Below, in pieces: positions 13,395 to 39,194 of a DNA stretch of 54,940 nt. This DNA comes from a virus: the IMG/VR virus record IMGVR_UViG_3300027749_000137, positions 1-54,940 of that record; one strand, 5' to 3'. The notes beneath the pieces were generated by a model. That model saw nothing but the letters and a program-made list of their open reading frames with translations, was not told the origin of the DNA and ran no database searches. A program made the position numbers and the translations under genes. Numbering within the stretch: position 1 is the first letter of the stretch; every line of letters starts with the position of its first letter.

Positions 13395-16300
13395 TTATAG
13401 GTAGCGGCGATTATCGTCCGATTGGCGTTCAACAGAACCGCCATGCCGGAATTTAACACCTTCTTTCAAGACTTTTGCAGCGGCTTCCGGGGTCCAAGCC
13501 ACACCGTGGACCAAGATTGGGTTGCCATCTTTGTCCTGAAGTTGGATATTACGGATTTCAAAACCTGCTTTTTCCCCACCAAGATCTTTTACAACCTGCT
13601 TAAGATTGATTGGTACTTTTTTCTCGTACAACTGCGACTGTTTTGATTCTGCCCCGGGGAAAGTAGCAAAACTGCCTCCGTCCCGCATGGTGGCTTGAAT
13701 GGAATTTTTCATCAACAGTTGTTGTTCCACAGAAGGGTTTGTCTCAAAACCATGGAAAGGTTGTTCCAGCTTATATGTGGGCGCTTCTCTTCCTGCTGCA
13801 TTTATGCGTTTTTGCAAAATAAGCTTACGTTGATCCAATTTAGCCAACTCTGCATTAATTTGCTCAGGATTTCCTTTAGGGGGATTTGCCCGCATCTGCC
13901 CAATTTTACTGGTTAAATCTTCATATTCTGCTTTATCCTTTTCAAGGCTTCCGCCTGCCGGACCTTTTTTTCGAATATCCTGTGCAAGGTCAGATTGCAA
14001 TTCATGGTAGTGTCTGCCCTTAACATTACTCCCCATGCCCGGGATAGCCGCTTCATGCTCCGAGTAACGGGAAAAACCAATTGGATGCGCCTGACCTGCG
14101 ATAGTTCCGTGCTGGCCACCATATGGCGCTACATCCTCTAATGATGCTTCTAGCCTCCGTACTTCAGGGGTAATGTCCCGTTGTATGCCTACTTTTAAGT
14201 CATTGTATTTTTGCAGGATAGGGTCAAGTGCATCGTTTAATTGTTGTTTAAATTCTGGTTGTGCACGAAATAACTCATGCGTGGGAATTCCTTCAGGTCT
14301 ACCGAAAACGTCAGGCTTACTAGAAATTACAGCCTCTAGGTCTGGGAGTTTTGCAGGATCAACCCCTACCGCTTTTAACCTATCTATGGCCTCTTGTCCT
14401 ATCGCACGGGTTGCGGCTTGGTGGGCTAAAAGTTCTCTTTCAGCCAAAGGAACTGTGGACCCCTCCATACCTTTATCTATGGCGTTATATATTTCCCAAT
14501 ATGGCCTATTACTTTTGGCATCTGTATATATGACAGGGAACATAAGTCCCCTTGCTGCATCCGATATCTCCTTGGTTTTTTGCGATATCTCATTTATATC
14601 GTTTGTGTATGCATTTACTTTATTCAGTAAAGACTTACTGGCAGGAAGATCCTTTAGTAAAGGAGATGAGCCTATTAAAGATTTAATCTTATCTACATCT
14701 ACACGAAAGTTTCCATTAATGTCTGTGTTGAAATTAACAAAATCTTTTATGGCACTGATTGTGCTTTTTGCATCTTTTGCAGAAGCTGCCACTTCAGGAG
14801 GCATGTCTAAGTACAGATTTGTTGTACCTAATTGCTTACCAAACACATTGTCTTGGCTTTCCCAGAACTTAGACCCAGTAGTATCTACCGAAAGATCCTC
14901 CGATTTAAACCGTTGGGGAGAATAAGTTTTGCCAAGCGTTTCTTTTAGTTGTTCAGGGGTTATCTTGGCATTTGCAGGGATATCCGCAAGCGCTGCTTCC
15001 AAACGCTGGACATCGTACTCCCGCAAATTTTTTTTAACTTGATTGATAAGCTGTTGTTTCTGCACAGGACCGGGCAGTTGGTCTACAAGTTGGTCCAATC
15101 TTCCAACAAACGGGCGATCAGCCGGTGTTGAAATTTCTTCGGGGGGTGCAACTGGAACAACTTCTGGTAGGGCAGGTGTTCTTTGCGCTGCTTGTTCCAT
15201 TGCCGCTGCTTCGGCTGGCGCAGGGATAAAGTCGTCTATGGCTTGATGACCTTCTGGAGCCAACGCTACTTCCCCCCATCCGGCTGGGTTGGGTGCGACT
15301 TCCGGTGCGACTTGAGCAGCCGGGGATGGGCGGGCTACTCCCGCCGCATCCAACCGACGATTCATTTCCCGAATTGCTTGGAGTTGACGATCTATATCCT
15401 CATTCATCCGAGCAACAGCGGCTAAGTTTTCACTTGTCGGTGCGGCTTTGGCTGCGACTTGTGCAGTCTTCAATCCGTTGTATGCATTCTTCAGCATTTC
15501 TGCCGCAGTAGCACCCGTGCGCATTGCACCGCGAACCACGGAGGCAGGGTTGAGCAACCCGGCTCCCATCTCCCCCATCATTCGGAAACCTTGGTCCTGT
15601 GGGTCTTTGGAATCCTCTGGGCGGATACCATATTTGGTGGCTTGCTCCTTGATCCAATCACTTCCCATCACGGGCTTTTGTTCTTTGTAACCAGCCGGAC
15701 GCATGGCCATGGATACTAAATCAACAGGTGCACCTGCGAGATCGTAGGGGAGATCCAATGCTCCTTTGCCAATGTTTTCTACGTTACGTACTGTTCCTTT
15801 GGCCACCCCCTTGAGCATCTTGGCTGCTTCTGAAGGATTGAAGTCCTTGCCCTTGGCCATGGTGTCCGAGGTGATCGGACCGCTGTCGGCTACCCCCATG
15901 GGATCTTGGAAGTAATCCGTGCTCTCTCCGGTAGCAGGAGAACCATCGGCGCGAGATATGGGAGTCACGGCAAACGGGCTTTGCTGGTTAATACCAGTAG
16001 GCATCAAGTTGTTTGGCAAGCCTTGGTTACTGCCAAAACCAGAATTAAATGGCATTGGTGCAACAGTGGCAGCCCGCATAGCAATCATTGTTGGCGTAGG
16101 TGTTGCCAAATTGTTATACATATTGGCATTGTTATACGGCGCAGCAACAGGAGCGCTGTTCACATAAGCAAACGGATCAACAGGATGGTTGTACGCTTGG
16201 TACGGAACATATTGTGTGCTTGGTACTTCTACGGGTCCCATGGTTATCACTGACCCCGTTGTACCTGAAGTAGTTCTACTGGTAGTTGTTGGAGCAACAG

Positions 16301-18196: not shown

Positions 18197-19666
18197 TCAA
18201 TAATACTCAAGGGCTCCTAGCTCTACCTTTTCCTCATCCTGTTCATCAGAATCCAAAGCAATAAAATTCCCTTGACGGAATCTTGTCCAAGCCATAACCG
18301 TTGAGTCCACCTGATCGTCATGCGCCCCATTAGGAAACGATGCACATTCTTCAACAAGCTCTTGCGCCCACTCCAAATCCGCCGGATACCAGATCATTCC
18401 CGATTCCAACAAGGGAGCTACCGCATTAGCACGCGATATCTTATCCTGCCCGGTCCGTCTGCCGCCGGGTGAGTACATCGTAACCGGAATCCCTATGCGG
18501 CGCAATTCCTGTTGCAATGGCGTGCCAGTAGCCTTGGCCTCGATCAAAACATTATCGGGATTCCAATAAAGGTACTCGGACCGCGCAACGCGCTTCAATT
18601 CAGGAAAGTCCCACCGCCCGCGCTTCACGTTGAGCAAGATCAGATTGGGGCCCGAGTCGGCAGAAGGGGTGAACACGCCCCACGTCGAGATGACAGAGTA
18701 GTCCGCCGTCTCCTTCTTGGAGTACGCAGTATCGTAGGACTGGATGATGTATTCGCAGGCCGGGGGTTCATCGTAAGTCCACTTGCGCCACCAATCGCGC
18801 TTCAAGATTGCGCCTTCATCGTTGGTGGGCTGCTGCTGCCACTGGGCATTCCACTTCTTTAAACCAATGCTGACTTTGACTTTTTCTAGCTCATCTATAT
18901 GCCAATACTCGGGCCAAAGTGCGCGGCCCGAGGGAAGAATGGCAGGAAATTCCAAGATCTCCCATTGATCTGACTTTAACTGCCCTTGCTGCCTTAGTAA
19001 GCGCCCTGTAAGGTCATCGGTCTTCCAGCGGGTATTAATGATGATGATCGAGCCGTTGGGCTGGAGACGCTGACGGGGGCCCGAGGTATACCACTCCCAA
19101 GTGTTCTCCATGGCTGTCTCGGACAGAGCGTCCTGCTCGTCCAAGATATCGTCCAGAATGACAATGTCACCGCCGCGCCCGGTCATCGCGCCGCCCTTAC
19201 CGATGAAATAGGCTTCCCCACCACCCTTCGTGTTCCACCGACCAGCAGCCTTGCTGTCAGCAGAAAGGCCCACGGACGGGAAAAGTTCCTTGTACTTATC
19301 TTCCTCGACAAGGTTTCGGATCATCCGGCCAAAGCGTTGGGCCAGCTCGGCAGTATGGGAGCCGACAATGAGTTTAGAAGCGGGGATCTTGCCCATCAGG
19401 TAGGCGGGGAACAGATAACTGCCCATCTGTGACTTGCCGTGGCGCGGGGGCATGGCGATCATGAGCCGCTTGCATTTGCCCTCGATCACCCGGTCAAAAG
19501 CCTTGGCAATCCGCTTGTGGTGTTCCCCGATGATGATCTCGGGCCAGACGTAGCGGCAAAACTCTAGGAAGTTGGTGGTGGCCTTGTCCCGGATTTCAAT
19601 TTGACGTAGGCGTAGCTCCAGCAGGAGGCGTTTATGTTCGACATCGGGGGCTTCATTTGGGGCCAT
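18197..19666 (-). CDS. terL: Terminase large subunit
   Basis: 489 residues from the ATG of MAPNEAPDVEHKR; a longer TTG-initiated form is less likely because it runs into a strong inverted repeat. The ATPase has Walker A PPRHGKS (73-79), Walker B VILDDIL (169-175) and the coupling motif NTRW (211-214). The nuclease part has SYDTAYSKK (Asp312), LIEAKATG (Glu377) and GAHDDQVDS (Asp450/451/454). The enzyme pumps DNA into the prohead and cuts the concatemer. It begins the late block; its small-subunit partner is not adjacent but at 24354-25022. Confidence 0.95.
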   Translation of the reverse strand: MAPNEAPDVEHKRLLLELRLRQIEIRDKATTNFLEFCRYVWPEIIIGEHHKRIAKAFDRVIEGKCKRLMIAMPPRHGKSQMGSYLFPAYLMGKIPASKLIVGSHTAELAQRFGRMIRNLVEEDKYKELFPSVGLSADSKAAGRWNTKGGGEAYFIGKGGAMTGRGGDIVILDDILDEQDALSETAMENTWEWYTSGPRQRLQPNGSIIIINTRWKTDDLTGRLLRQQGQLKSDQWEILEFPAILPSGRALWPEYWHIDELEKVKVSIGLKKWNAQWQQQPTNDEGAILKRDWWRKWTYDEPPACEYIIQSYDTAYSKKETADYSVISTWGVFTPSADSGPNLILLNVKRGRWDFPELKRVARSEYLYWNPDNVLIEAKATGTPLQQELRRIGIPVTMYSPGGRRTGQDKISRANAVAPLLESGMIWYPADLEWAQELVEECASFPNGAHDDQVDSTVMAWTRFRQGNFIALDSDEQDEEKVELGALEYY

Positions 19667-19696
19667 GGGCAGACTCGTAAGGTTCTGAATTTTTAT

Positions 19697-19702
19697 AGTA
19701 TA
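19697..19702 (-). promoter_or_regulatory. Possible late promoter -10 box before the terminase
   Basis: On the minus strand the sequence GGGTATACTATAAAAATT holds a good -10 hexamer (TATACT) about 30 bp before the terminase start. No good -35 box is seen at 17 bp, so an activator or a relaxed promoter would be needed. Confidence 0.35.
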
Positions 19703-19739
19703 CCCCCACCCTTGCCTTTTTAAAAACAAGGGGGTGGGG
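19703..19739. repeat. Inverted repeat CCCCACCC / GGGTGGGG upstream of the terminase
   Basis: Left arm CCCCACCCTTG and right arm CAAGGGGGTGGGG pair with a two-base bulge, around a self-complementary TTTTTAAAAA core. It overlaps the region just upstream of the TATACT box. It could be a protein-binding site or a transcript end for the upstream early unit. Confidence 0.6.
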
Positions 19740-20121: not shown

Positions 20122-20143
20122 AAGCGGCCCAGTTGGGCCGCTT
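20122..20143 (-). terminator. Rho-independent terminator after the early gene block
   Basis: AAGCGGCCC (20122-20130) pairs with GGGCCGCTT (20135-20143). On the minus strand the stem is followed by TTCTTTT, giving a standard terminator about 35 bp downstream of the stop of the 20176-20454 gene. It would keep early transcripts out of the late block. Confidence 0.8.
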
Positions 20144-20175: not shown

Positions 20176-20454
20176 TTACTCTGCTGCTGCTGCTGCTTCG
20201 CGTGCTTTGTATGCTTCTTTGGAAGCAGTGCTTAAGCGTACAGCTTCCTCTTCAGGGTAAAGATCCACTTCTTCAATTTGCACGCTAGCAAATTTGCTAG
20301 CGTATGCGAAGTCTGTGCCATCATAATTGCAGAGGCTAGAAGCTTTGCGCAGTGTGCCGATGAACCCGATAAACGCTTGCAGTTCTTTGGTGGAAACGCT
20401 CTCAGGGATCACCAGCTTGCAGTCCCATCCGAGGTTCAATATACGAGTCTTCAT
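20176..20454 (-). CDS. Early protein of unknown function
   Basis: 92 residues (MKTRILNLGWDCKLVIPESV...). A compact alpha/beta N-terminus is followed by an acidic part and an Ala-rich helical tail ending in AAAAAE. No recognised domain. The start is fixed by AGAAAGGATA (20460-20469) five bases upstream. It has its own leader with a -10-like TATAAT and a hairpin and is followed by a terminator, so it appears to be a single-gene transcript. Confidence 0.75.
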   Translation of the reverse strand: MKTRILNLGWDCKLVIPESVSTKELQAFIGFIGTLRKASSLCNYDGTDFAYASKFASVQIEEVDLYPEEEAVRLSTASKEAYKAREAAAAAE

Positions 20455-20478
20455 TTTGCTATCCTTTCTAGGGTTGAT

Positions 20479-20528
20479 TGTCAGCGGCTGCTGACATGGA
20501 CATTATAAGCCAGCCCCACGGGGCTGGC
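20479..20528 (-). promoter_or_regulatory. Promoter and leader hairpin of the 92-residue early gene
   Basis: Reading on the minus strand: palindrome GCCAGCCCC/GGGGCTGGC (20509-20528), then the -10-like TATAAT (20502-20507), then a leader hairpin TGTCAGC/GCTGACA (20479-20496), then AGAAAGGATA. The palindrome covers where a -35 box would be and could be an operator or the end of the upstream gene's transcript. Confidence 0.5.
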
Positions 20529-20547
20529 CCACAATTCTTTCTATCGA

Positions 20548-20967
20548 TTAATCGAACGTGATAGATACGCACGTGCCGGACAGTGCCGACTCGACATCAA
20601 AGTTGTTATCCATCCAGTCCTGCACCTTTTGATCTAGATCGATGTCATCGATGGCCTCATCGATCTGGCGGGTAATTTCGTGGCTGTGATTTTCAAGTGC
20701 CACTTCCACTGAACTGTGAACAGCAGTAAAGGCCTTTTGAATTTCGGCCTCGATCAATTCGCGCAGTGGTGCGTTGGCAGCGGCCATGTCGGACTGGTGC
20801 AGTTTGATGGCTGTATTCAATACTGAATACACAGCAGTGAGTAACGCTGCCGAATTGTCAGAGCCATTGGCCAGTTCAGTTGCACGGGCCAGCGCCGTAT
20901 CCATGTTGTCATACGTCACAAACAGGTTGTTTGTGTACGTGGCAAGAGTAGTTCCGTAGACTTTCAT
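20548..20967 (-). CDS. Early helical protein of unknown function
   Basis: 139 residues (MKVYGTTLATYTNNLFVTYD...). Mostly helical and acidic in its second half (DEAIDDIDLDQKVQDWMDN). The start is set by AGAAAGGATA at 20973-20982; longer readings would run through the palindromic non-coding island and are rejected. No known domain is recognised. The amphipathic helices suggest a multimeric or partner-binding protein. Confidence 0.75.
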   Translation of the reverse strand: MKVYGTTLATYTNNLFVTYDNMDTALARATELANGSDNSAALLTAVYSVLNTAIKLHQSDMAAANAPLRELIEAEIQKAFTAVHSSVEVALENHSHEITRQIDEAIDDIDLDQKVQDWMDNNFDVESALSGTCVSITFD

Positions 20968-20997
20968 TTTGCTATCCTTTCTAGGTTGATGATGTAG

Positions 20998-21067
20998 CCC
21001 CACTGGGGGACTGTCTGAATTATAGCCCAGTGGGGTAACAAACCAGCCCCAGCCCCGATTGTATTTT
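20998..21067 (-). promoter_or_regulatory. Promoter, hairpin leader and upstream motif of the 139-residue gene
   Basis: On the minus strand: AAAATACAAT (21058-21067), 33 bp, then TATAAT (21019-21024). The -10 box lies inside a perfect 10-bp inverted repeat, CCCCACTGGG (20998-21007) with CCCAGTGGGG (21026-21035), so promoter opening and hairpin formation could compete. AGAAAGGATA follows. Confidence 0.5.
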
Positions 21068-21094
21068 TCAATTAAACCAGCCCCACCGATAGCG

Positions 21095-21153
21095 CCCAAG
21101 CTTCGCGGCCCTTCGCTGCGCGAGCCCTTCGGGCGCGGGCCGCGAAGCTTGGG
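21095..21153. repeat. 17-bp inverted repeat with inner hairpin
   Basis: CCCAAGCTTCGCGGCCC (21095-21111) and its exact complement (21137-21153) flank a 25-bp loop that itself holds GCCC-TTC-GGGC. This is one of the strongest potential cruciforms in the window and is far richer in G+C than its surroundings. Confidence 0.85.
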
Positions 21154-21154
21154 A

Positions 21155-21179
21155 CGTGGTGCGCGGTCCGCGCACCACG
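21155..21179. repeat. 12-bp palindrome adjacent to the large inverted repeat
   Basis: CGTGGTGCGCGG (21155-21166) and CCGCGCACCACG (21168-21179) around a single base. It begins 1 bp after the larger inverted repeat. Both may be targets for one DNA-binding protein or parts of one inserted repeat element. Confidence 0.8.
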
Positions 21180-21308
21180 CAGCGCGGTGCATTTTCACTG
21201 GTGCACGCAGCGCGGCGCGCGGCTTGGTTTCCGATATCGAAAGCAACCTAAAAAAGGCCAGCAAAATTACCCTTTTCCATTGGGCAATTCGCCAGCCTTA
21301 CGCAATAG

Positions 21309-22316
21309 TTAAGCGCTAAGCAATTCCACTGCTCGATTTTTAAGCGCTGCGCCAGTGCCAAACCATGCCGATTCAAGGCGCGTATTGTCGGACCTTCCGC
21401 GCTCATGATCCACCAATTCGGTGACAGCATTAAGCATGGCCCAGCGACTACCAGCAACCCCGTCGATATCGGAACCGATAGCGGCTCCGTTGAATAATTG
21501 CAGCACCCGCTTATAGGCGCGGCTTTCTGTGATATCGATCCGGCCTGTGTGGTAGGGTTTGAGCAATTCGGCAACAAAAGAATCGGCCTCCGCTGCACTC
21601 ATGGTTTCCGCTGCCAATTGGCGGCTCTGAACAATAAAGCGCTCGAATTGATTCGCCACAATCCCCAATTGCAGGCGGACGGTGTCGGCGTCGAAGCGCT
21701 CACTATGCAATACGCGAATGGCACTTTTCAGATATCCCTTTTCGGTTTCCGCTTCGCCCTTCACGGCCTGCCCGTTGGAATAGCCGCCCACTGCCGCCGT
21801 GATTGTGTTATTGCACACCACGCGAATTGCAGTGAATTTCGCAATTGTCGCCATGGTTCCATCGTAGGACGTGCCCAGCAATAGGTACGGCTTGACTAGG
21901 TCCCCGTCTACCACTGGTGCCGCTTCGCCCACGCTCGCCAGTGCCCAAACCCTGCGCCCGTAACTAAGGGCTCCGGCTGTCTCCAATTGAAAACCGCCAA
22001 GCGCTACTAAGTCAGAGAAAAAGCCCATTATTTCGGCGGGCTGAACAACGTTATAGCCCTTCGATACTACCGCCAGCGCTGCGCCGGTATCGCTCCGGTG
22101 CAGTACTTTACGCTCCGGCCATGCTTGGGGCTCTGTTGCCGCTGCTGTCTGAAATAGAACGGGGCTCTCCAATACGCTGTAAGACAAGCCAGCTTCGCGG
22201 GTCCAAGTGGGGATATCTGCCCCCGCTGTCAGTGCCTGCCCCAGTCCGTGCCACGGGGTTTTACCTGCGTACGCAATCGCTGCGCTGCCGGTGGTGGTGT
22301 CGATCATATGTGCCAT
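21309..22316 (-). CDS. DUF932 / phage-plasmid-like protein (TIGR03299 type)
   Basis: 335 residues. The opening MAHMIDTTTGSAAIAYAGKTPWHGLGQ is the signature I associate with DUF932 (TIGR03299) proteins of phages and plasmids. A central VCNNTITAA segment and GEAETEKGYLKSAIRVLH follow, then a helical C-terminus. The family's biochemical role is not established. The start is fixed by AGAAAGGATA (22322-22331). The gene has its own leader, lies between early single genes, and is richer in G+C than the AT-rich plus-strand operon. Confidence 0.85.
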   Translation of the reverse strand: MAHMIDTTTGSAAIAYAGKTPWHGLGQALTAGADIPTWTREAGLSYSVLESPVLFQTAAATEPQAWPERKVLHRSDTGAALAVVSKGYNVVQPAEIMGFFSDLVALGGFQLETAGALSYGRRVWALASVGEAAPVVDGDLVKPYLLLGTSYDGTMATIAKFTAIRVVCNNTITAAVGGYSNGQAVKGEAETEKGYLKSAIRVLHSERFDADTVRLQLGIVANQFERFIVQSRQLAAETMSAAEADSFVAELLKPYHTGRIDITESRAYKRVLQLFNGAAIGSDIDGVAGSRWAMLNAVTELVDHERGRSDNTRLESAWFGTGAALKNRAVELLSA

Positions 22317-22370
22317 TTTGCTATCCTTTCTGTTGTTAAAAAATTACCGGTTTTCCTGTTCCGGTGCGCC

Positions 22371-22409
22371 AGTATAAGCGCAATATTCAGTGCCTGCCGA
22401 TTGTATTTT
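22371..22409 (-). promoter_or_regulatory. Promoter region of the DUF932 gene
   Basis: On the minus strand: AAAATACAAT (22400-22409), 23 bp, then TATACT (22371-22376). A leader with a short ACCGG/CCGGT hairpin and then AGAAAGGATA follow. The -35 region is not canonical; the upstream motif may substitute for it. Confidence 0.45.
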
Positions 22410-22478
22410 TCAATCGAATTTATCCAGCACCCAGCTAATCCCTATTATGACGGCCAGCGCCACGAAGGCCATTATCAT
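22410..22478 (-). CDS. Tiny single-pass membrane peptide (possible)
   Basis: A 22-codon frame (MIMAFVALAVIIGISWVLDK plus two residues) whose ATG overlaps the stop of the Cys-rich gene as ATGA. Nearly all of it is one hydrophobic helix followed by a charged end. The 4-bp overlap matches the coupling style of this genome and supports translation, but at this length chance cannot be excluded. Confidence 0.35.
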   Translation of the reverse strand: MIMAFVALAVIIGISWVLDKFD

Positions 22479-23173
22479 GCTGCCGCCTTTCCGCAATCCC
22501 CTGCGATATGGTGCCGCAACATGCTGCCACGGGGCAAACCATGCGCGAAGGCGCGGACGGCCTGCGCATCATTGGCGGCCCCTTTCTTTTTAGTAGCATG
22601 CCACTGTATAGCAGTGGGGCCCGATGCTGCATAGCAACCCCCTTCGGCATCGGTGCCGACTCTCTTTTTTCCGGTACCGTGCCCAACGAACACCACCACA
22701 TAATCACGTTGACCACGTGCGCATAGTGGGGAACCATTCCCGCACTGCTGGCATGTGAATGAATCGGACAATTCGGCAGGGCACCGGACAAACCCGATAC
22801 CGTGGAATTTTCGGGGCCATTGGTCCGCGCTATCGTGGGGCGCTGCGTAAACGGCAGGCCTTCCAAGCTCTACAGCGCGTGCCGCATCTTGCATGGTGTC
22901 GCAGCTTGCATTAAATACGGTTTTGCCTTCGGCAGGCAGTGGTAAGGCTTCGGCCTGAAAATGGCTGTAGGTCCAAGCCAAGCCCCCACGGGGAACCGCA
23001 TCATAAACGGCCTGCATATATTCGGCATCGACTAGGTCCGTGCCGGTTTCGCTTTTCGGGTGCAGCTTGCACGTTTTGGGGCACGTGCCATAAGTCTCAT
23101 GTTCGCCTGCGCGATAAGTAACGGCAATGGGGCCGGTTTTGCTGTTGCTGCTGGTTTGTACTGTCTTGAGCAT
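22475..23173 (-). CDS. Cys-rich early protein of unknown function (DUF7227-like?)
   Basis: 232 residues (MLKTVQTSSNSKTGPIAVTY...). Cys31-x3-Cys35 (GTCPKTCK), Cys131, Cys141-x2-Cys144 (CQQCG) and Cys151 could bind zinc or an iron-sulphur cluster. There are two further Cys near the C-terminus. The SKTGPIAVTYR opening and WTYSHF segment resemble a family I recall as DUF7227, without a known reaction. The start is set by AGAAAGGATA (23179-23188), so the upstream ATG at 23212 is rejected; that ATG also falls inside a palindrome. The gene is G+C-rich. Confidence 0.7.
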   Translation of the reverse strand: MLKTVQTSSNSKTGPIAVTYRAGEHETYGTCPKTCKLHPKSETGTDLVDAEYMQAVYDAVPRGGLAWTYSHFQAEALPLPAEGKTVFNASCDTMQDAARAVELGRPAVYAAPHDSADQWPRKFHGIGFVRCPAELSDSFTCQQCGNGSPLCARGQRDYVVVFVGHGTGKKRVGTDAEGGCYAASGPTAIQWHATKKKGAANDAQAVRAFAHGLPRGSMLRHHIAGDCGKAAA

Positions 23174-23191
23174 GATGTTATCCTTTCTGAT

Positions 23192-23212
23192 ATGCCGGAA
23201 CCGTTCCGGCAT
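23192..23212 (-). promoter_or_regulatory. Perfect palindrome in the leader of the Cys-rich gene
   Basis: ATGCCGGAAC and GTTCCGGCAT, 10 bp each around one base, lie between the -10-like CATAAT (23220-23225) and the AGAAAGGATA site. Suitable as an operator for a dimeric regulator or as an RNA hairpin next to the ribosome binding site. Confidence 0.6.
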
Positions 23213-23219
23213 GGTTTGA

Positions 23220-23257
23220 ATTATGCGGCTATTTGGTTACTCCGTGCATTGTATTTT
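23220..23257 (-). promoter_or_regulatory. Promoter region of the Cys-rich gene
   Basis: On the minus strand: AAAATACAAT (23248-23257, within the end of the 82-residue gene), 22 bp, then CATAAT (23220-23225, overlapping that gene's TAA stop). Spacing matches the two sister promoters at 22.4 and 23.9 kb. Confidence 0.45.
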
Positions 23258-23469
23258 GCTATCGTCTCGCGGCTAATAATAGGTATCGCAGTGCGTGCCG
23301 GAAAGTCCCACGGGAACCCCTCTATTACCATGTTCTCGGCGTATTGTCGGGCGGCCTTAAGAGTATCGAAAGCGCGAACGGCGGTGCGCGTGCTAGGGTA
23401 GCAAACAACGAACTTGACGCGCTCGCGCGGCTTGGGGTGTTGGCGTCGGTAGCTTACGGGATTAGACAT
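23221..23469 (-). CDS. Early protein of unknown function
   Basis: 82 residues (MSNPVSYRRQHPKPRERVKF...). Basic N-terminus, then VKFVVCYPSTRTAVRAFDTL, a short alpha/beta unit, and a helical C-terminus. AAGGGG lies six bases before the ATG. It overlaps the upstream gene's end by 8 bp and is therefore co-translated with it. No recognised family. Confidence 0.65.
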   Translation of the reverse strand: MSNPVSYRRQHPKPRERVKFVVCYPSTRTAVRAFDTLKAARQYAENMVIEGFPWDFPARTAIPIISRETIAKYNARSNQIAA

Positions 23470-23878
23470 TTTGAGCCCCTTCGATTACGCGCATAGCGGC
23501 TTCCTCGCCCCCATCACACATACTAACGGCAACGACAATTGCGGCCATTACGTCCGAAAGGGTCTGCTCCCCTGCACCTCGAACGACAGTGGAATAAATA
23601 CCGCCATTTTCTTGGGCGCTATCCCAATCAATATATTGGCTTTCGCGGTACATTTCGATTGTGGTTTTAACCGGCTTTTTAGCAAAAGCCACAGCGTGGC
23701 CCCATAAAATGTATGAGTCAGTTACCGTGCGGCTTTCGGAAAAACGTTCCGATATTCTTTCCTCGTCATAACCCATTGACAACATAAGGGCAATCGTTTG
23801 GACATTTTCCTTGCTCTCATAACCCATGCATTGGCCGTACGCCTCAACAAAGGCTTCTATCTCTTTTGCGGTTTTCAT
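23462..23878 (-). CDS. Early helical protein of unknown function
   Basis: 138 residues (MKTAKEIEAFVEAYGQCMGY...). Alternating helices with acidic surface; a SMGYDEERISERF segment looks like a helical hairpin. No enzyme motif. AGAAAGGATA (23884-23893) fixes the start, and the gene has its own leader and -10 box. It forms a two-gene unit with the 82-residue gene. Confidence 0.7.
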   Translation of the reverse strand: MKTAKEIEAFVEAYGQCMGYESKENVQTIALMLSMGYDEERISERFSESRTVTDSYILWGHAVAFAKKPVKTTIEMYRESQYIDWDSAQENGGIYSTVVRGAGEQTLSDVMAAIVVAVSMCDGGEEAAMRVIEGAQNV

Positions 23879-23896
23879 CTCTCTATCCTTTCTGTG

Positions 23897-23961
23897 GTGT
23901 GCGCACTATTGCGACACGGCCCTATGTTAGCCCAAAATACATCCCTGCCTAATTGTATTTT
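23897..23961 (-). promoter_or_regulatory. Promoter and leader hairpin of the 138-residue gene
   Basis: On the minus strand: AAAATACAAT (23952-23961), 22 bp, then TAACAT (23924-23929), then a leader hairpin in which TGCGACAC (23910-23917) pairs with GTGTGCGCA (23897-23905) with one bulged base. AGAAAGGATA follows. Confidence 0.45.
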
Positions 23962-23968
23962 CCTATCA

Positions 23969-24376
23969 CTAAGCCAGTGCCAATAGCTGCCGCAATTTAC
24001 TCCAATCCATGGCGCGGGACGGCCAAGAGGCCATAGGCGCAAGCCTAAGCCCCTGCTGGGCAAGCTCGATAGCATCCTTGCCAGCATAAAGGGATATCGT
24101 GGAAGGGACCAACAAGGAGCCCTCCCGCTTGACCAAAATAAAGCACGGACGGCCCGCTGCTGAGTTGCGGGCCATAAAGGCTATTTGATGTGGCCGAAGG
24201 CCTACCTTCAGGCCGCGAGTGACAACCTTAAGCTCGACCAGCACAAACCGCGAATTAATGCCAATGAGCATGTCCGGAATGCCGAGGTTTACCCGATTCT
24301 CCAGCCGCTCAATATCGCAATTGAGCAGGCTAGTGCGCACGCGCTGGGAAAATTTACTCTCCGGTGTTGTCGCCAT
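23969..24376 (-). CDS. PD-(D/E)XK (VRR-NUC/resolvase-like) nuclease
   Basis: 135 residues. The pattern NRVNLGIPDMLIG (GIPD at 32-35), LVELK (48-50 ELK), RPHQIAFM (61-68) and CFILVKREG is the conserved core of VRR-NUC or Holliday-junction-resolvase-like PD-(D/E)XK nucleases. Asp35, Glu48 and Lys50 are the probable metal-binding/catalytic residues. It may resolve branched DNA before packaging or degrade host DNA. The start overlaps the small terminase 3' end by 23 bp, which suggests a packaging link. Confidence 0.75.
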   Translation of the reverse strand: MATTPESKFSQRVRTSLLNCDIERLENRVNLGIPDMLIGINSRFVLVELKVVTRGLKVGLRPHQIAFMARNSAAGRPCFILVKREGSLLVPSTISLYAGKDAIELAQQGLRLAPMASWPSRAMDWSKLRQLLALA

Positions 24377-25022
24377 GGTCTATCTCGAAAATGTCCGGCG
24401 GGGGCTCCGCCACGCCTGCGTCAAAAATGGGGTCTGCCTGCTTAGCTATGCTGTCCATGACCAAACCGGTGTCAGCGTCAATCAGGGCAGTCGGAGGGGG
24501 ACCGCCGTACAAGCGCTTAAGCTCTTCAAGCTGGTGTTGCACTTCTTCTTTGCTCATGCTGTCAATGGTCCCGTGCCGGATTTCCTTGCGCTCCACGTAG
24601 ATTGTCCCCAGCGCCTGTCCGCGCCGATACTCAGCGGCCACGGCAGCCGAGAACGCCCCAGCCTCCAGCGCCTTGTCGCGGATGATCTGAAGGTCCCGCA
24701 TGTGCCGCTCATAGCTGGTGTTGTACTTTGAGGCCAATTCGGCCCTGTAGGCCTGAATAGCGGCCACCACGTGGGGGTATACCTTGGGGTTCGTTAGCTT
24801 CCACGCCATGACCGATGCGCTGCCCTCTCGGTACCCTGCGCGGATCGCGGCTTCCTTCAGGGTCACACGGCCATCCCCTGAGACGTACTCCTGAACGAAC
24901 TTCCATTCCTTTTCGTTCATAACCTTGCGCTGCTTGCGCAGCGGGACAACTTCCCCAGCCATGCGCTGCTTGGCCTTGTCAGGCACCACAGGCGGCACGT
25001 TCCAAACGTCTTTACGGGTCAT
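24354..25022 (-). CDS. terS: Terminase small subunit
   Basis: 222 residues from the ATG preceded by GGAGG at five bases and overlapping the upstream stop as ATGA. A basic N-terminal part (PLRKQRKVMNEKEWKFVQEY) leads into LKEAAIRAGY and SASVMAWKLTNPKVYPHV, the helix-turn-helix region typical of Terminase_2-type small subunits that bind the packaging site. A helical oligomerisation zone and an acidic C-terminus (FEIDHGDNTGE) follow. It is unusual that the large subunit is about 4.7 kb away, beyond the early genes. Confidence 0.8.
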   Translation of the reverse strand: MTRKDVWNVPPVVPDKAKQRMAGEVVPLRKQRKVMNEKEWKFVQEYVSGDGRVTLKEAAIRAGYREGSASVMAWKLTNPKVYPHVVAAIQAYRAELASKYNTSYERHMRDLQIIRDKALEAGAFSAAVAAEYRRGQALGTIYVERKEIRHGTIDSMSKEEVQHQLEELKRLYGGPPPTALIDADTGLVMDSIAKQADPIFDAGVAEPPPDIFEIDHGDNTGE

Positions 25023-25246
25023 GCTGTCCTCCATAGTCGCCAGCCGCCGCTTACCTGCTTCAAGGAGAACTTCCACGTGGGCTCATGCTTCTGGATGAAC
25101 TGGGCAGCAGACACCCGCGCCGAGGTTCCCTTGGGCAGGGTATCAAAAAAGATGCTGTCGCCCACTTCCATATCCTTGAACGGGTAGCGGGTCCTTCCTT
25201 GGGGTATGGGCACATCAGGGTCTATTTGGAGGTTTGTAAGGGACAT
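25019..25246 (-). CDS. Small conserved phage protein (DUF7303-like)
   Basis: 75 residues. The arrangement YPFKDMEVGDSIFFD, KGTSARVSAAQFIQKH and GGWRLWRTA resembles a small domain I recall from many phages as DUF7303, with a beta-strand/helix/strand layout; possibly a regulator or nucleic-acid binder. It opens the minus-strand early block from the divergent control region and is coupled by ATGA to the small terminase. No clear ribosome binding site precedes it. Confidence 0.65.
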   Translation of the reverse strand: MSLTNLQIDPDVPIPQGRTRYPFKDMEVGDSIFFDTLPKGTSARVSAAQFIQKHEPTWKFSLKQVSGGWRLWRTA

Positions 25247-25656: not shown

Positions 25657-25683
25657 TTGACGTAAGGCTAGGTAAGATACAAT
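25657..25683 (+). promoter_or_regulatory. Promoter of the rightward early operon
   Basis: TTGACG (25657-25662), 15 bp, TACAAT (25678-25683). A GGTCC/GGACC leader hairpin (25698-25709) and then AGAAAGGATA (25728-25737) five bases before the first ATG follow. The leader layout mirrors that of the minus-strand early genes. Confidence 0.6.
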
Positions 25684-25742
25684 AAACCCCGGGCCTCGGT
25701 CCTCGGACCAGTTTCCATTAACCATCAAGAAAGGATAGATAA

Positions 25743-25961
25743 ATGCAGACACAGATGCCGAATCAAACCAGCATTGCAGACGTAATGCTGAGCATTCCTG
25801 TAGAAGTTCACTACGCGCTAGACAAAGACGGGAGAACGCAAATAGTAGCAGTAAACGTAACGGTAGGGAAAAGCTCTCTAAACGTTATCAGTCTACTTGG
25901 AGAAGATGACTTCTTTGATATTTTTGTCCAACTGGACGATTACTACCACGAGGTGTCCTGA
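25743..25961 (+). CDS. First protein of the rightward early operon, unknown function
   Basis: 72 residues (MQTQMPNQTSIADVMLSIPV...). Acidic, with a likely beta-strand/helix fold and a C-terminal FDIFVQLDDYYHEVS. It has the best ribosome binding site of the operon and should be its most abundant product. No known family. Confidence 0.65.
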   Translation: MQTQMPNQTSIADVMLSIPVEVHYALDKDGRTQIVAVNVTVGKSSLNVISLLGEDDFFDIFVQLDDYYHEVS

Positions 25962-28581: not shown

Positions 28582-28814
28582 AAACAATTATTCATGTGAA
28601 TCAGCACGTCATAAAATCCAATGCAAAAAATGGAACAAATGAGCCGGTGTTAACAGTAAAAACGTACAAGGAAAACCGGTATGCACATGAAGCCGTGATC
28701 CTCGGTCCATGCAAAGTGGTCTATTCTCCTGACAGAGCACTTTCGTGCGGGGCAAAGGTGTGGATTGAGACGCATGCAGAGGTTGAACTTAAATTAGAGG
28801 AGCAAACAGCTTGA
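28578..28814 (+). CDS. Early beta-rich protein of unknown function
   Basis: 78 residues (MKTIIHVNQHVIKSNAKNGT...). Alternating beta strands with an AVILGPCKVVYSP core and an acidic end. ATGA overlap with the preceding gene; its own stop overlaps the TTG start of the glycosyltransferase. Small size and position suggest a regulator or partner protein, but nothing identifies it. Confidence 0.55.
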   Translation: MKTIIHVNQHVIKSNAKNGTNEPVLTVKTYKENRYAHEAVILGPCKVVYSPDRALSCGAKVWIETHAEVELKLEEQTA

Positions 28815-29815
28815 CCATATTCGTGAGCCTCGCTTCTTACTGCGACAACCTTTTGGAGCAGACCATGACAGAAGCCATGACCAAGGCTAAGTACCCAAGG
28901 GATATCCGTTTTGGTGTGGTGGAACAGCAATACGTTGAGAAACGTCTGCGCTCTGAAATTGTCAAGAATCCGCAGGTCCGTTATGTCGGGATTGATATCC
29001 GCGAGGCGCGGGGCGCGTGCTGGGCACGGGCTTTGGCGATGAGTTTATACAATGACGAGGACTACTTTTTGCAAGTGGATGCACACACGGTATTTGATGA
29101 GGATTGGGATGAGAAACTGATCAAATCCATAGAACATTGTGGGAAGAAATCAGCCAAGCCTTTGTTGTCTAGTTATCCTCCTTCTTTTGAAATTAAGGAC
29201 AAACAGATCATCCTTCAGTACGCCCCCAAGTGCATGGCCACATCATGGGTAGTGGACAAAGAATGGCCTAATGAGCCTAACGGTAATGACATTGTCTTGC
29301 ATTTCAGGGCGTACGTTTATAACGATGTTACGGAGCCTGTCAAAGGGTTTCATGTTGCTGGGGGAATGATTTTTGCGCATGGGAAGTTTGTGTACGAAGT
29401 ACCGTATGACCCGCATTTGTATTTCCAAGGCGAAGAACAAAATATCTCGGTCAGGGCCTATACGCATGGATGGGACATTTACCATACCCCTGATGTTCCT
29501 GTTTATCACCTGTATGCCATGAATAAAGAAGGGCAAGAAGGAACGCCTGATATTGAACGTAATCAGAGGGAAACGCACTGGGTAGAAGACAAGGACAAAA
29601 TGCGTAAGGAGCGATGGTGGGACCTTGATAAAAAGTCAAGGACTAGGCTATCTGCTTTACTGCATAAAGGTGAGAATCTTGGTGCGTATGGGCTGGGAAA
29701 AGAACGCACATTAAAGGACTATGCGAAGTTTTCTGGGATTGATTACGTCAACAAAAAGCTTATGCCTAATGCATGGTTGCCTTCTGAACGTCCTGCGACT
29801 AAGAAAAAGAAATGA
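28811..29815 (+). CDS. Glycosyltransferase (GlcNAc-transferase-like, GT-A fold)
   Basis: 334 residues from a TTG preceded by GAGGAG and overlapping the previous stop (TTGA). MTIFVSLASYCDNLL is the nucleotide-binding start of the GT-A fold, and RGACWARALAMSLYNDEDYF precedes the metal-binding DxH motif in QVDAHTVF (88-95). FHVAGGMIFAHG and FQGEEQNISVRAYTHGWDIY form the acceptor and catalytic part. This is the layout of UDP-GlcNAc polypeptide/Skp1-type transferases (PF11397-like). It probably adds a sugar to host or phage surface, protein or modified DNA. It starts a three-gene sugar/methyl cassette. Confidence 0.8.
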   Translation: MTIFVSLASYCDNLLEQTMTEAMTKAKYPRDIRFGVVEQQYVEKRLRSEIVKNPQVRYVGIDIREARGACWARALAMSLYNDEDYFLQVDAHTVFDEDWDEKLIKSIEHCGKKSAKPLLSSYPPSFEIKDKQIILQYAPKCMATSWVVDKEWPNEPNGNDIVLHFRAYVYNDVTEPVKGFHVAGGMIFAHGKFVYEVPYDPHLYFQGEEQNISVRAYTHGWDIYHTPDVPVYHLYAMNKEGQEGTPDIERNQRETHWVEDKDKMRKERWWDLDKKSRTRLSALLHKGENLGAYGLGKERTLKDYAKFSGIDYVNKKLMPNAWLPSERPATKKKK

Positions 29816-30483
29816 AAGTTGGTGTGATGATCCCCACTTATAAGCGGCCTGATCTGCTTCGCGCAGCCGTGCTGCAATGGATTGTGCAAACAAGGCCACC
29901 GGACATTATTTGTGTTCATCAGAACGGGGAAAGCGAAAGCTACGAATGGGTTGTGGAAGACCTCAGGTCCTTGGTCCACGTCAAGTGGGTCTACATGCCT
30001 AAAACTATCCCCCAGCACCGTTGGTATCTTGTACCGCTAAGTTATCTGATCGCACAGGACTGTGATGTATTCTTTTGGGGTGACCATGATGATATTTATC
30101 TACGTAACCATGTGGAGAAATGCATTCGTGAGCTGGTACATGCGGACATTACGGTGTCCGAAACGTGCGGTGTGCTGTATCTGAAGGGCAAAGAGTTTGC
30201 CTACGATAAGCCAAGGAAATTTACTGCGCATGCGCCCGGGGGGATGAGTTCATCTATGGCATTTAATCGTCCTTTTGCCTTGGTTTTGGAAGAGGACTTA
30301 CAGGACGACACAAATACTTTTTTCTCAGATAACGTAGTGGCCAATGTAACCATGCCGAAATTTCGTGTGTTTAGGGGAGAAAGGAATACCACTGTTTATG
30401 TATCCCATTCAGGATCATATAGCTCATCAAGCTGGGTAAAAGAAAGCGATTGGGCTAAGGAAGCCAACTGGGGAACTGTATGA
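29812..30483 (+). CDS. Family 2-type glycosyltransferase
   Basis: 223 residues. MKVGVMIPTYKRPDLLRAAV is the typical GT2 opening. FFWGDHDDIYLR holds the DHDD (91-94), equivalent to the DxD metal site. The C-terminal half has FTAHAPGGMSSSMAF and FFSDNVVANVT, placing the acceptor site. It is short for GT2 and lacks membrane helices, so it is a soluble enzyme. It is joined by ATGA to the previous transferase, and the two probably act in sequence. Confidence 0.8.
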   Translation: MKVGVMIPTYKRPDLLRAAVLQWIVQTRPPDIICVHQNGESESYEWVVEDLRSLVHVKWVYMPKTIPQHRWYLVPLSYLIAQDCDVFFWGDHDDIYLRNHVEKCIRELVHADITVSETCGVLYLKGKEFAYDKPRKFTAHAPGGMSSSMAFNRPFALVLEEDLQDDTNTFFSDNVVANVTMPKFRVFRGERNTTVYVSHSGSYSSSSWVKESDWAKEANWGTV

Positions 30484-31118
30484 ACATATGGCAAGACTTT
30501 AAGAGTAATAACGGCAAAGGGATTTACAAGTGGTCACATTATTTCCCTATTTATGAAAAGCATTTTGCTTCTTGGCGCAATAAAAATGTGACTTTTTTGG
30601 AAATCGGAGTACAGCGGGGCGGCTCACTGCAAATGTGGCAGCGTTTCTTTGGCCCGTTGGCCACGATTGTCGGCATTGATATTGATCCAAGTTGCGCGGC
30701 GCATGGTGGGGAAAACGTGCACGTGCGCATTGGGGACCAATCCGATACACAATTTTTAAAATCCCTAATTGATGAATTTGGGCCTTTTGATATTGTTCTG
30801 GATGATGGCAGTCATCACATGATTCATATTTGGAAGACGTTTGAATTCATGTATCCCAAAATATCAAAGAATGGGATCTATGCGGTGGAGGATCTGCATA
30901 CAGCGTATTGGAAGGAGTATGGAGGGGATATTACGGACAAGAACACTTTTGTCAACATCAGCAAAAGTTTTGTTGATGATTTAAATGCGCACCATTCAAG
31001 GGGCGTGTTGAAGCCTAATTTCATAACAGACAATACGTTTGGGATTTCTTTTTACGACAGCGTTATCGTGTACGAACGAGGGCGCATACCAAATAGAAAT
31101 CCTATTCTGTCTGAGTAA
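30480..31118 (+). CDS. Class I SAM-dependent methyltransferase
   Basis: 212 residues. FLEIGVQRGGSLQMW (motif I, 39-53), IVGIDIDP (63-70, ribose-binding acid) and FDIVLDDGSHH (103-113) match sugar or macrolide O-methyltransferases and cephalosporin-hydroxylase-like proteins. IYAVEDLHTAYWKEYGG is the usual post-motif segment of that group. It follows two glycosyltransferases with ATGA overlap, so sugar O-methylation is the most likely reaction. Confidence 0.8.
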   Translation: MNIWQDFKSNNGKGIYKWSHYFPIYEKHFASWRNKNVTFLEIGVQRGGSLQMWQRFFGPLATIVGIDIDPSCAAHGGENVHVRIGDQSDTQFLKSLIDEFGPFDIVLDDGSHHMIHIWKTFEFMYPKISKNGIYAVEDLHTAYWKEYGGDITDKNTFVNISKSFVDDLNAHHSRGVLKPNFITDNTFGISFYDSVIVYERGRIPNRNPILSE

Positions 31119-37476: not shown

Positions 37477-38244
37477 TCAAAACGGTGCTGGCCCGCCAGC
37501 GGTGACATCCTCATCAGCGTGTTTGACTTTCACGTCACCAGCGCTTACCGAAGAGGAAAAAGCTTTGGCGGCGTGGTACACGCTCATGTCATTAATCGGC
37601 CCAATGCGCTCGACTTCCCAGCCGTACCATTTACCCTTGTCGTTGGACTCAGCCTGAGTTGTCAGACGATAAAGGTGTGAATACATCGGTGGCGTGTATG
37701 CGCCATTCTTACCCATCAACTTGGTGGACATCATCATGGAATTCCACTTGCGCGACTTCTTCAGTTGCGTGGACTTCATGGTGATCAAGGCAGGCTCAGG
37801 GATGCCATCATCGCTAATCACCATCACATAATGATTGGCGGTGTTTTCGATGTAGTTCCCGTTGTCAAGGTAATCCTTGTTGTCGCCCGGTTCGCGGTGC
37901 GTGCGACTCAAAACGTCAGACGTGGCCGGGTAGATCGCAATCGGAGCGCCCGAACCAACTCCACGTGGTGCCCACTCAATGTACTGACGTACATAGGCGC
38001 AAGGCACAACGATCATCCCCTTTTTGCCGTCATACAACGTACCATTTACAGTGTTGTAAACCATACCGGGCATCGCACCATCGACCTCACCAACCTCGGG
38101 GGAGGTATTGGTCAACAAGCGCAAGAACGGCAGAGCAAAATCATCCTGATTCATCGACTCAAAGCCGCTGGATGCATCCTGTTCAAAGTCATTCACCAAA
38201 GCAATTGCTTGCTCGCTTTTCACTGCTACTTCTGTCTTAGCCAT
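37477..38244 (-). CDS. Probable single-stranded DNA-binding protein
   Basis: 255 residues (MAKTEVAVKSEQAIALVNDF...). A beta-rich core (FLRLLTNTSPEVGEVDG, MIVVPCAYVRQYIEWAPRG) with aromatic and basic residues is followed by an acidic tail ending HADEDVTAGGPAPF, similar in kind to the partner-binding C-terminus of SSB and T7 gp2.5. It lies between primase and two conserved replication genes. SSB function is inferred; no sequence-level OB motif is certain. Confidence 0.55.
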   Translation of the reverse strand: MAKTEVAVKSEQAIALVNDFEQDASSGFESMNQDDFALPFLRLLTNTSPEVGEVDGAMPGMVYNTVNGTLYDGKKGMIVVPCAYVRQYIEWAPRGVGSGAPIAIYPATSDVLSRTHREPGDNKDYLDNGNYIENTANHYVMVISDDGIPEPALITMKSTQLKKSRKWNSMMMSTKLMGKNGAYTPPMYSHLYRLTTQAESNDKGKWYGWEVERIGPINDMSVYHAAKAFSSSVSAGDVKVKHADEDVTAGGPAPF

Positions 38245-38259
38245 TTTTCATTTCCTTCT

Positions 38260-38820
38260 TTATGCTGATTTGATAGTTGCTTTTTGGCCTACGTATACGC
38301 CAAAAAGCTCGGTTGGGAACTCGCTTCCACGTTCCACTTGCTCACGAACCCAAGCTTTCAAGGTCTGGGGCTCGATCTTCTGCGATTGCTCGACTGGATA
38401 GTTTTGCTCACGCAGTTGATTCAGTAATGTGTCGCACAGGCCGTCTTCTCCACGGCCAAAACGTACTGACACTGTGTTTTTGATGATGTCATCAAAGCCG
38501 TTATCACGCAGCCACTCATAGGCCTTGGCGCGTTTCTCTTCCTTGATGCTGGCGCTGTAGAAAGGCTTGACTTCAATGTTGCTGCCATCAGCCATCTTGA
38601 AAGACTTCATACCAAGCTCGGACAACATCGCAGGGATGGTGTCTTCCAGCAATTTGCGGCGCTGTTCTTGGCGCTCTTTCAGCACACTCTCCAGCTCTTC
38701 CACTTCTTTTTCCAACTCCTTGGCCCGCTTGGCCAAGGCTCCAACGGAGGACAGGTCTTCGTTCTTCACGACCAAAGCGCCAGCATCCTCCTCAAACAGG
38801 TCATTCATATCAGTCATCAT
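38260..38820 (-). CDS. Conserved coiled-coil replication-region protein
   Basis: 186 residues. An N-terminal coiled coil (residues ~25-65, AKRAKELEKEVEELESVL) is followed by FKMADGSNIEVKPFYSASIK and a helical part with DNGFDDIIKNTVSVRFG. I recall this arrangement in many podovirus replication modules, where it has no assigned role; a Gam-like or polymerase-accessory role is possible. Start has GGAG six bases before the second ATG. Confidence 0.65.
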   Translation of the reverse strand: MMTDMNDLFEEDAGALVVKNEDLSSVGALAKRAKELEKEVEELESVLKERQEQRRKLLEDTIPAMLSELGMKSFKMADGSNIEVKPFYSASIKEEKRAKAYEWLRDNGFDDIIKNTVSVRFGRGEDGLCDTLLNQLREQNYPVEQSQKIEPQTLKAWVREQVERGSEFPTELFGVYVGQKATIKSA

Positions 38821-39163
38821 GCTCTCCTTTCTCAGTGATGTCCAAACGGACGGGAATATACAACTTTTCGCGGCGGTCCCATTTCAGGGCAGTAAAACTG
38901 CCTGAGTTATAGGCTGCGGCTATCGCACAAGACAATCCGATAGCCACAGGGTCACCAGTCAACAACAGGAAATCTTGGTCAGAGTATTCCCGCAACTTGC
39001 GCTTCAGCAGCCTTACGGCGGGGGCCGTGGAGAATGCGATCTGCGTGTTGAACGGGAGCAAAACTACCATCTCCCCAAAGGACATTGCAGCAGCAATATC
39101 GTGATTGGGCATTTCCTGAACTACATATACCTTAGCGGTACGGGGATCTTTTTTATCAGTCAC
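38810..39163 (-). CDS. First gene of the replication operon, unknown function, GTG start
   Basis: 117 residues from GTG with AGAAAGGATA (39171-39180) seven bases before. The core has DIAAAMSFGEMVVLLPFN, a beta/alpha fold, and the end is acidic (DITEKGEHDD). No catalytic motif. Overlaps the coiled-coil gene by 11 bp. Position as operon leader suggests an early and abundant product. Confidence 0.65.
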   Translation of the reverse strand: MTDKKDPRTAKVYVVQEMPNHDIAAAMSFGEMVVLLPFNTQIAFSTAPAVRLLKRKLREYSDQDFLLLTGDPVAIGLSCAIAAAYNSGSFTALKWDRREKLYIPVRLDITEKGEHDD

Positions 39164-39194
39164 GTTACGTTATCCTTTCTTAAAACGTACGGCT

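Follow-up and report, generated by a model that had tools for sequence, protein, structure and literature searches.

What is the role of an inverted repeat that separates the promoter from the start codon in each of five minus-strand genes, when its sequence differs from one gene to the next? The question is raised by one IMG/VR virus record (IMGVR_UViG_3300027749_000137), whose 54,940 bases are referred to as the window and in which the five genes, here called A to E, start at positions 20454, 20967, 22316, 23173 and 23878. The original prediction, made from the letters of the window, had described the same order of elements at these starts, and all five of them indeed display a -10-like hexamer, an inverted repeat, the sequence AGAAAGGATA in the position of a Shine-Dalgarno (SD) sequence, and the ATG. 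The window contains seven exact copies of AGAAAGGATA, against 0.07 expected, and none of 100 shuffles reaches seven. The five leaders are organized as follows:

20454..20507, minus strand: leader of gene A, with -10 TATAAT (20502-20507), stem TGTCAGC-AGCC-GCTGACA (20479-20496), SD AGAAAGGATA (20460-20469) and ATG (20454).
20967..21024, minus strand: leader of gene B, with -10 TATAAT (21019-21024), a leader-only stem (20996-21012) and SD (20973-20982).
22316..22376, minus strand: leader of gene C, with -10 TATACT (22371-22376), stem ACCGG...CCGGT (22346-22365) and SD (22322-22331).
23173..23225, minus strand: leader of gene D, with -10 CATAAT (23220-23225), stem ATGCCGGAA-CGG-TTCCGGCAT (23192-23212) and SD (23179-23188).
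23878..23929, minus strand: leader of gene E, with -10-like TAACAT (23924-23929), a bulged stem (23897-23917) and SD (23884-23893).

Four of the hairpin places proposed originally (20479-20496, near 22350, 23192-23212 and 23897-23917) are thereby retained; the remaining one, 20998-21035, encloses the -10 of gene B and belongs to a second class of repeats described below. No sequence is common to the stems of the five genes. In each of the five predicted transcripts, the first base of the stem is +1 or +2, and the SD lies outside the stem, on its 3' side, being mostly unpaired in four of the five models.

In the window alone, the leader fold goes clearly beyond shuffles only for the starts of A (20454) and D (23173), with z about -3. 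It is the relatives, not the window, that settle the matter, and their sequences confirmed that the hairpins exceed chance. Among the predicted genes of the window and 13 relatives, starts preceded by the ribosome-binding site of the module have a mean leader-fold z of -1.91 (n=72), versus -0.35 for other starts (n=422). When 153 non-redundant AGAAAG-type starts were drawn from 21 records, stems of at least 9 bp were found at 39 of them, while shuffles gave 9; the stems most often begin 3-7 nucleotides (nt) past the end of the best -10. The leaders of DUF932 genes, the family of gene C, were also compared: 45 non-redundant leaders, taken from 73 distinct ones, have a mean fold z of -3.2, with 91% below -1.5 and none above 0, and 39 of the 45 stems start 3-8 nt past the -10, mostly 5-7. 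Since a -10 hexamer normally ends at -7, this offset would place the first paired base at about +1. The stems comprise 7-12 bp, without a conserved loop or an aptamer-like core.

What is conserved is the place of the stem and its pairing. The DUF932 stems are replaced wholesale between relatives while their position is kept, and the leaders of gene A in two relatives (G002 and G023) carry stems of unrelated sequence at the identical position. The original prediction held that compensatory changes in relatives would support it, and such changes were found: 19 aligned DUF932 stems give a covariation score of 0.322, a value reached by none of 500 shuffles, whereas pairings slid along the same alignment give at most 0.125. 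The slid control is the better guide, because related sequences inflate covariation counts. In the same alignment, one-sided standard changes all lead to G-U pairs. Four distinct stems that form a second group give a concordant result; the two groups were aligned separately, a joint alignment being unusable. Judged from these sequences, pairing appears to matter over sequence, as in stabilising stem-loops, given the unrelated stems at one place and the covariation with G-U pairs.

About 20 phages have the layout of -10, stem, ribosome-binding site and ATG ahead of many unrelated genes; G011, for instance, has it at six starts and G008 at five, and stems like CACTGGATC-AGCC-GATCCAGTG are reused ahead of different genes. 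The idea of a modular promoter and structured leader placed before unrelated accessory genes, in this phage and in related ones, is thus borne out, the stem keeping its place but not its sequence. We considered, and rejected, the hairpin as a property of the DUF932 family: no such stem was found at the DUF932 genes of two unrelated phages (Stenotrophomonas Marzo and an Acinetobacter phage record), and it is therefore characteristic of this group of phages rather than of DUF932 genes. Some leader pairing is present at the DUF932 genes of Acidovorax ACP17, a Manatee Spring record and Edwardsiella ZHS. Sequence comparison thus establishes the ordered layout, its recurrence before unrelated genes, the fixed position of stems of covarying sequence and the exclusion of the SD from the stem.

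How might such a leader work? In our analysis, protection of the mRNA 5' end is the most likely role of the hairpins, with a probability somewhat better than even, and insulation of the ribosome-binding site comes next, either as a competing explanation or as an additional role. Every one of the five genes would have its own sigma70-type promoter, from which transcription, as judged from the -10, would start so that the first paired base of a GC-rich stem-loop sits at, or about 2 nt from, +1; after the stem would come a brief unpaired spacer, and then the strong common site AGAAAGGAT and the ATG. Acting as RNA, the hairpin would keep RppH-type pyrophosphohydrolases and RNase E from finding a single-stranded 5' end, yielding a longer-lived mRNA, and would leave the ribosome-binding site open whatever gene comes next. 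We favour this role because RppH and RNase E both require that the 5' end be single-stranded, a need that accounts for the stabilising effect of 5' structure (reviewed in PMC3997798), and because the T7 gene 10 mRNA (PMC2254391, citing Mertens et al. 1996) is a phage precedent for a stabilising 5' stem.

Two further aspects of the locus bear on this proposal, namely where the transcripts end and what lies upstream of the promoters. Among the five genes, gene A alone has a strong intrinsic terminator behind it:

20122..20143, minus strand: intrinsic terminator AAGCGGCCCAACTGGGCCGCTT + TTCTTTTG after gene A, likely the common 3' end of the block.

In G002 and G004, the same terminator stands after the block's last gene. 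With a strong terminator after gene A only, the transcripts probably form a nested, 3'-co-terminal set ending at 20143-20122. Of the independent transcripts expected originally, separate 5' ends are therefore likely, but not strict independence. The leader hairpins themselves were rejected as terminators, as no T-run follows the stems except in gene C, where a T run comes 2 nt after the weak stem; most relatives lack that run. A long GC-rich inverted repeat (CAAGCTTCGCGGCCC...GGGCCGCGAAGCTTG), also without a T-run, occupies 21091-21160 between genes C and B. In relatives, an intergenic repeat whose centre varies between the ends CTATCGG...CCGATAG is dispersed over several sites (L173 about 15681; L180 about 5056 and 5584; G014 about 3555 and 3910); it often lies directly upstream of these promoters and is sometimes followed by a T-rich stretch; these repeats are perhaps terminators.

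The layout is wider than the original prediction saw, in that it overlooked an upstream box. The window contains five copies of AAAATACAAT, where 0.17 would be expected; four of them precede genes B, C, D and E. The boxes are:

20531..20545, minus strand: degenerate upstream box GATAGAAAGAATTGT of gene A, 23 nt upstream of the -10, recognized from sequence and alignment.
21057..21073, minus strand: upstream box AATTGAAAAATACAATC of gene B, 33 nt upstream of the -10, one helical turn beyond the others.
22398..22416, minus strand: upstream box CGATTG-AAAAATA-CAATCG of gene C, a perfect palindrome immediately upstream of the -35 position.
23248..23264, minus strand: upstream box CGATAGCAAAATACAATG of gene D, overlapping the 3' coding part of the open reading frame (ORF) 23221-23469.
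23952..23968, minus strand: upstream box TGATAGGAAAATACAAT of gene E.

Measured from ACAAT (or its equivalent) in the box, the gap to the -10 is 23 nt for A, 33 for B, 23 for C, 22 for D and 22 for E. The shift of 10-11 nt in gene B amounts to one helical turn and thus fits a contact of a protein, or of the RNA polymerase alpha subunit, on one face of the DNA, although this single case is only suggestive. Close relatives have related boxes ahead of the corresponding genes, whereas in distant relatives a TTGACA -35 stands where the box would be. The AT-rich GAT(A/T)G-N-AAAATACAAT box, which lies near weak -35 regions or upstream of them, may be read as an UP-element-like or activator-binding site, which would offset the weak -35 in this subgroup. 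We rejected TACAAT of the box as the -10 of gene C, because distant homologous leaders have TTGACA-17-TAAAAT with the -10 adjoining the stem. The fifth exact AAAATACAAT copy (14202-14211, minus strand) lies within a 1584-amino-acid ORF and lacks the other leader elements that were sought there.

A number of points weigh against 5'-end protection. The +1 is deduced from the -10; gene E has a poor -10 (TAACAT), and most -35 regions are poor too; gene C has a weak stem, and the model leaves its SD partly paired (P unpaired 0.39). Taken by itself, the window gives leader folds for 20967, 22316 and 23878 (B, C and E) that stay within the shuffle range. A generic sigma70 scan of 15-32 kb gave no excess (13 versus 17.4 expected), nor did a generic terminator scan over its expectation, and such scans were therefore not taken as proof. 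Covariation alone does not tell a role in RNA stability from other roles of an RNA. Finally, the 5'-end model does not account for a second class of repeats that bracket the -10, although gene B, which has one of them, also has a small leader stem:

20998..21035, minus strand: perfect 10-bp inverted repeat CCCCACTGGG / CCCAGTGGGG enclosing the -10 of gene B (second class).

As this repeat encloses the -10, its 5' arm lies outside the transcript of that promoter, and it is consequently not the leader hairpin of gene B. Perfect inverted repeats of 9-14 bp around the -10 are found at 8 of 94 non-redundant promoters and at none in shuffles; repeats of this kind lie at 20998-21035 in the window, 20807 in G002, 7488 and 8030 in G020, three starts in G006 (L172), 5669 in G013 and 3600 in G014. 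Paired changes on both arms distinguish the G002 and G020 repeats. Both classes could be combined in a two-state promoter-and-leader element, in which the leader repeats shield the 5' end and the -10-bracketing repeats let upstream transcription or supercoiling tune the gene; the bracketing repeat would then either fold as RNA, in read-through transcripts alone, or extrude as a cruciform from the phage DNA when this is supercoiled. We regard this combination as a long shot.

The simplest rival, that the hairpins have no functional structure and are chance repeats beside AT-rich boxes in a GC-rich phage, would agree with the three window hairpins out of five that stay within chance and with the promoter and terminator scans; the relatives refute it, with a z of -3.2 over 45 leaders, the fixed offset, the covariation and the excess over shuffles, and it is hardly credible. 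If the repeats were instead DNA operators just downstream of the -10, where a dimeric repressor or activator co-regulates the five genes, their location would be natural, since +1 to +20 is a usual operator position for inverted repeats; the upstream box common to the genes and the perfect palindromes among the repeats point the same way. Yet the five stems have no common sequence and are wholly replaced between relatives at the same gene, so that one protein could not read them all, and the one-sided changes to G-U break DNA symmetry while keeping RNA pairing. Operators are thus a very improbable explanation.

Among roles at the RNA level, the hairpins could be cis-acting signals for processive antitermination, similar to nut or put sites, or a site for another RNA-binding protein near the 5' end. 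Their location near the start of phage transcripts, their being a trait of a whole lineage and the gain that nested transcripts would draw from antitermination are consistent with such signals, but there is one hairpin per gene instead of one per operon, stems and loops differ within one phage and across phages, no loop, bulge or boxA-like sequence is conserved across the stems of one phage, and no candidate antiterminator was identified; we consider this role improbable. Closer to 5'-end protection is the possibility that the hairpins serve translation and not decay, by blocking upstream pairing with the ribosome-binding site or by providing a standby site, so that the SD behaves equally in monocistronic and read-through messages. 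The SD outside and 3' of the stem, after a short spacer, in all five genes, the independence of the layout from the downstream gene and the read-through that is likely with one terminator all argue for it. It leaves unaccounted for, however, why the stem starts at +1 and not anywhere upstream of the SD. As a replacement for 5'-end protection, insulation seems unlikely, though the two are not exclusive of each other.

The elements belong to a block of minus-strand genes flanked by the large terminase gene (18197-19729) on one side and, on the other, by a gene resembling a small terminase (24354-25076); they are listed here together with the site ahead of the rightward operon:

20176-20454, minus strand: gene A, 92 amino acids, without a convincing family.
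20548-20967, minus strand: gene B, 139 amino acids, without a convincing family.
21309-22316, minus strand: gene C, DUF932.
22475-23173, minus strand: gene D, DUF7227.
23462-23878, minus strand: gene E, 138 amino acids, without a convincing family.
25728..25745, plus strand: ribosome-binding site like those of genes A-E, ahead of the rightward operon (25743), with no leader hairpin above chance.

This setting does not sustain three labels given originally. The genes had been called early, a timing left unsupported by a block that sits between the terminase genes. They had been likened to morons; the block, however, is not made of single insertions, as the layout and the DUF932 and DUF7227 neighbours are found again throughout the phage group and a single strong terminator ends the block, even if genes A and B are ORFans and may be single gains. 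A riboswitch-type leader, finally, does not fit 7-12 bp stems without a conserved loop and with the SD outside; no Rfam family reached the gathering threshold in the window. The claim that the layout recurs before the rightward operon (25657-25743) holds for the ribosome-binding site, the AGAAAGGATA copy at 25728 (+), but not for the hairpin (leader fold z +1 to +1.8). The last AGAAAGGATA copy, at 39171-39180 (-), precedes the start at 39163 (-) of gene 38810-39163, likewise without a leader hairpin. A search for relatives of the DUF932 gene in bacterial genomes, as a route to the host, found none. Within the phage collection, the annotated relative nearest to the window is Phage DSL-LC04, which covers 27% of the block at 69% DNA identity; it is a metagenome-assembled phage from Dishui Lake whose host is uncertain (PMC10611076). 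Elsewhere in the window, the rightward operon (28811-31118, plus strand) encodes a GlcNAc-type glycosyltransferase and a methyltransferase-like protein, and the proteins encoded at 37477-38244 and 38810-39163 (minus strand) match Pfam families named for cyanophage Pam3 gp34 and gp32.

As to known systems, the upstream box resembles T4-type middle promoters, where an upstream motif replaces a good -35 at the promoters of several separate genes. The T4 MotA box, at the -30 position, has another sequence than the box found here, and, unlike in T4, no activator gene was identified in this phage. The leaders of the DUF932 and DUF7227 genes of Phage DSL-LC04 (OR003939) have a -10 and then a stem at the same offset as in the window, but their SD is of the GGAG type or AGAAAGAAAGCG, their stems are unrelated, the AAAATACAAT box is absent and the genes are annotated as hypothetical proteins only. 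5'-terminal mRNA-stabilising hairpins are known from single genes; in a group of uncultured freshwater phages, a hairpin at +1 appears to serve as the general mRNA format of an entire gene block, the stem being re-invented for each gene. We found no description of a phage-wide 5'-hairpin format in the literature searched, which is not proof of absence. If the proposal is true, the format would point to 5'-end-dependent decay in the host as a constant selective force on phage messages; it would also make available dozens of natural stabilising leaders that do not depend on sequence, and offer a signature by which the promoters and starts of anonymous phage genes could be found. The parts of the format have precedents. 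In E. coli ompA and papA, a stem at the extreme 5' terminus prevents 5'-end-dependent decay, its sequence being unimportant (PMC3997798, PMC2254391), but these are single cellular genes with longer leaders, not a repeated phage format. The T7 gene 10 (phi10) leader (PMC2254391) likewise has a phage promoter, a 5'-terminal stem-loop of about 8 bp, a spacer, a strong SD and the ATG; it differs in being one fixed leader served by the promoter of the phage's own RNA polymerase, whereas the promoters described here are sigma70-like and precede many genes with differing stems. The parts are thus known, and while we did not find a lineage-wide hairpin at +1 described for a block of unrelated genes, our analysis suggests that it would work like the leader of T7 gene 10 or of ompA.

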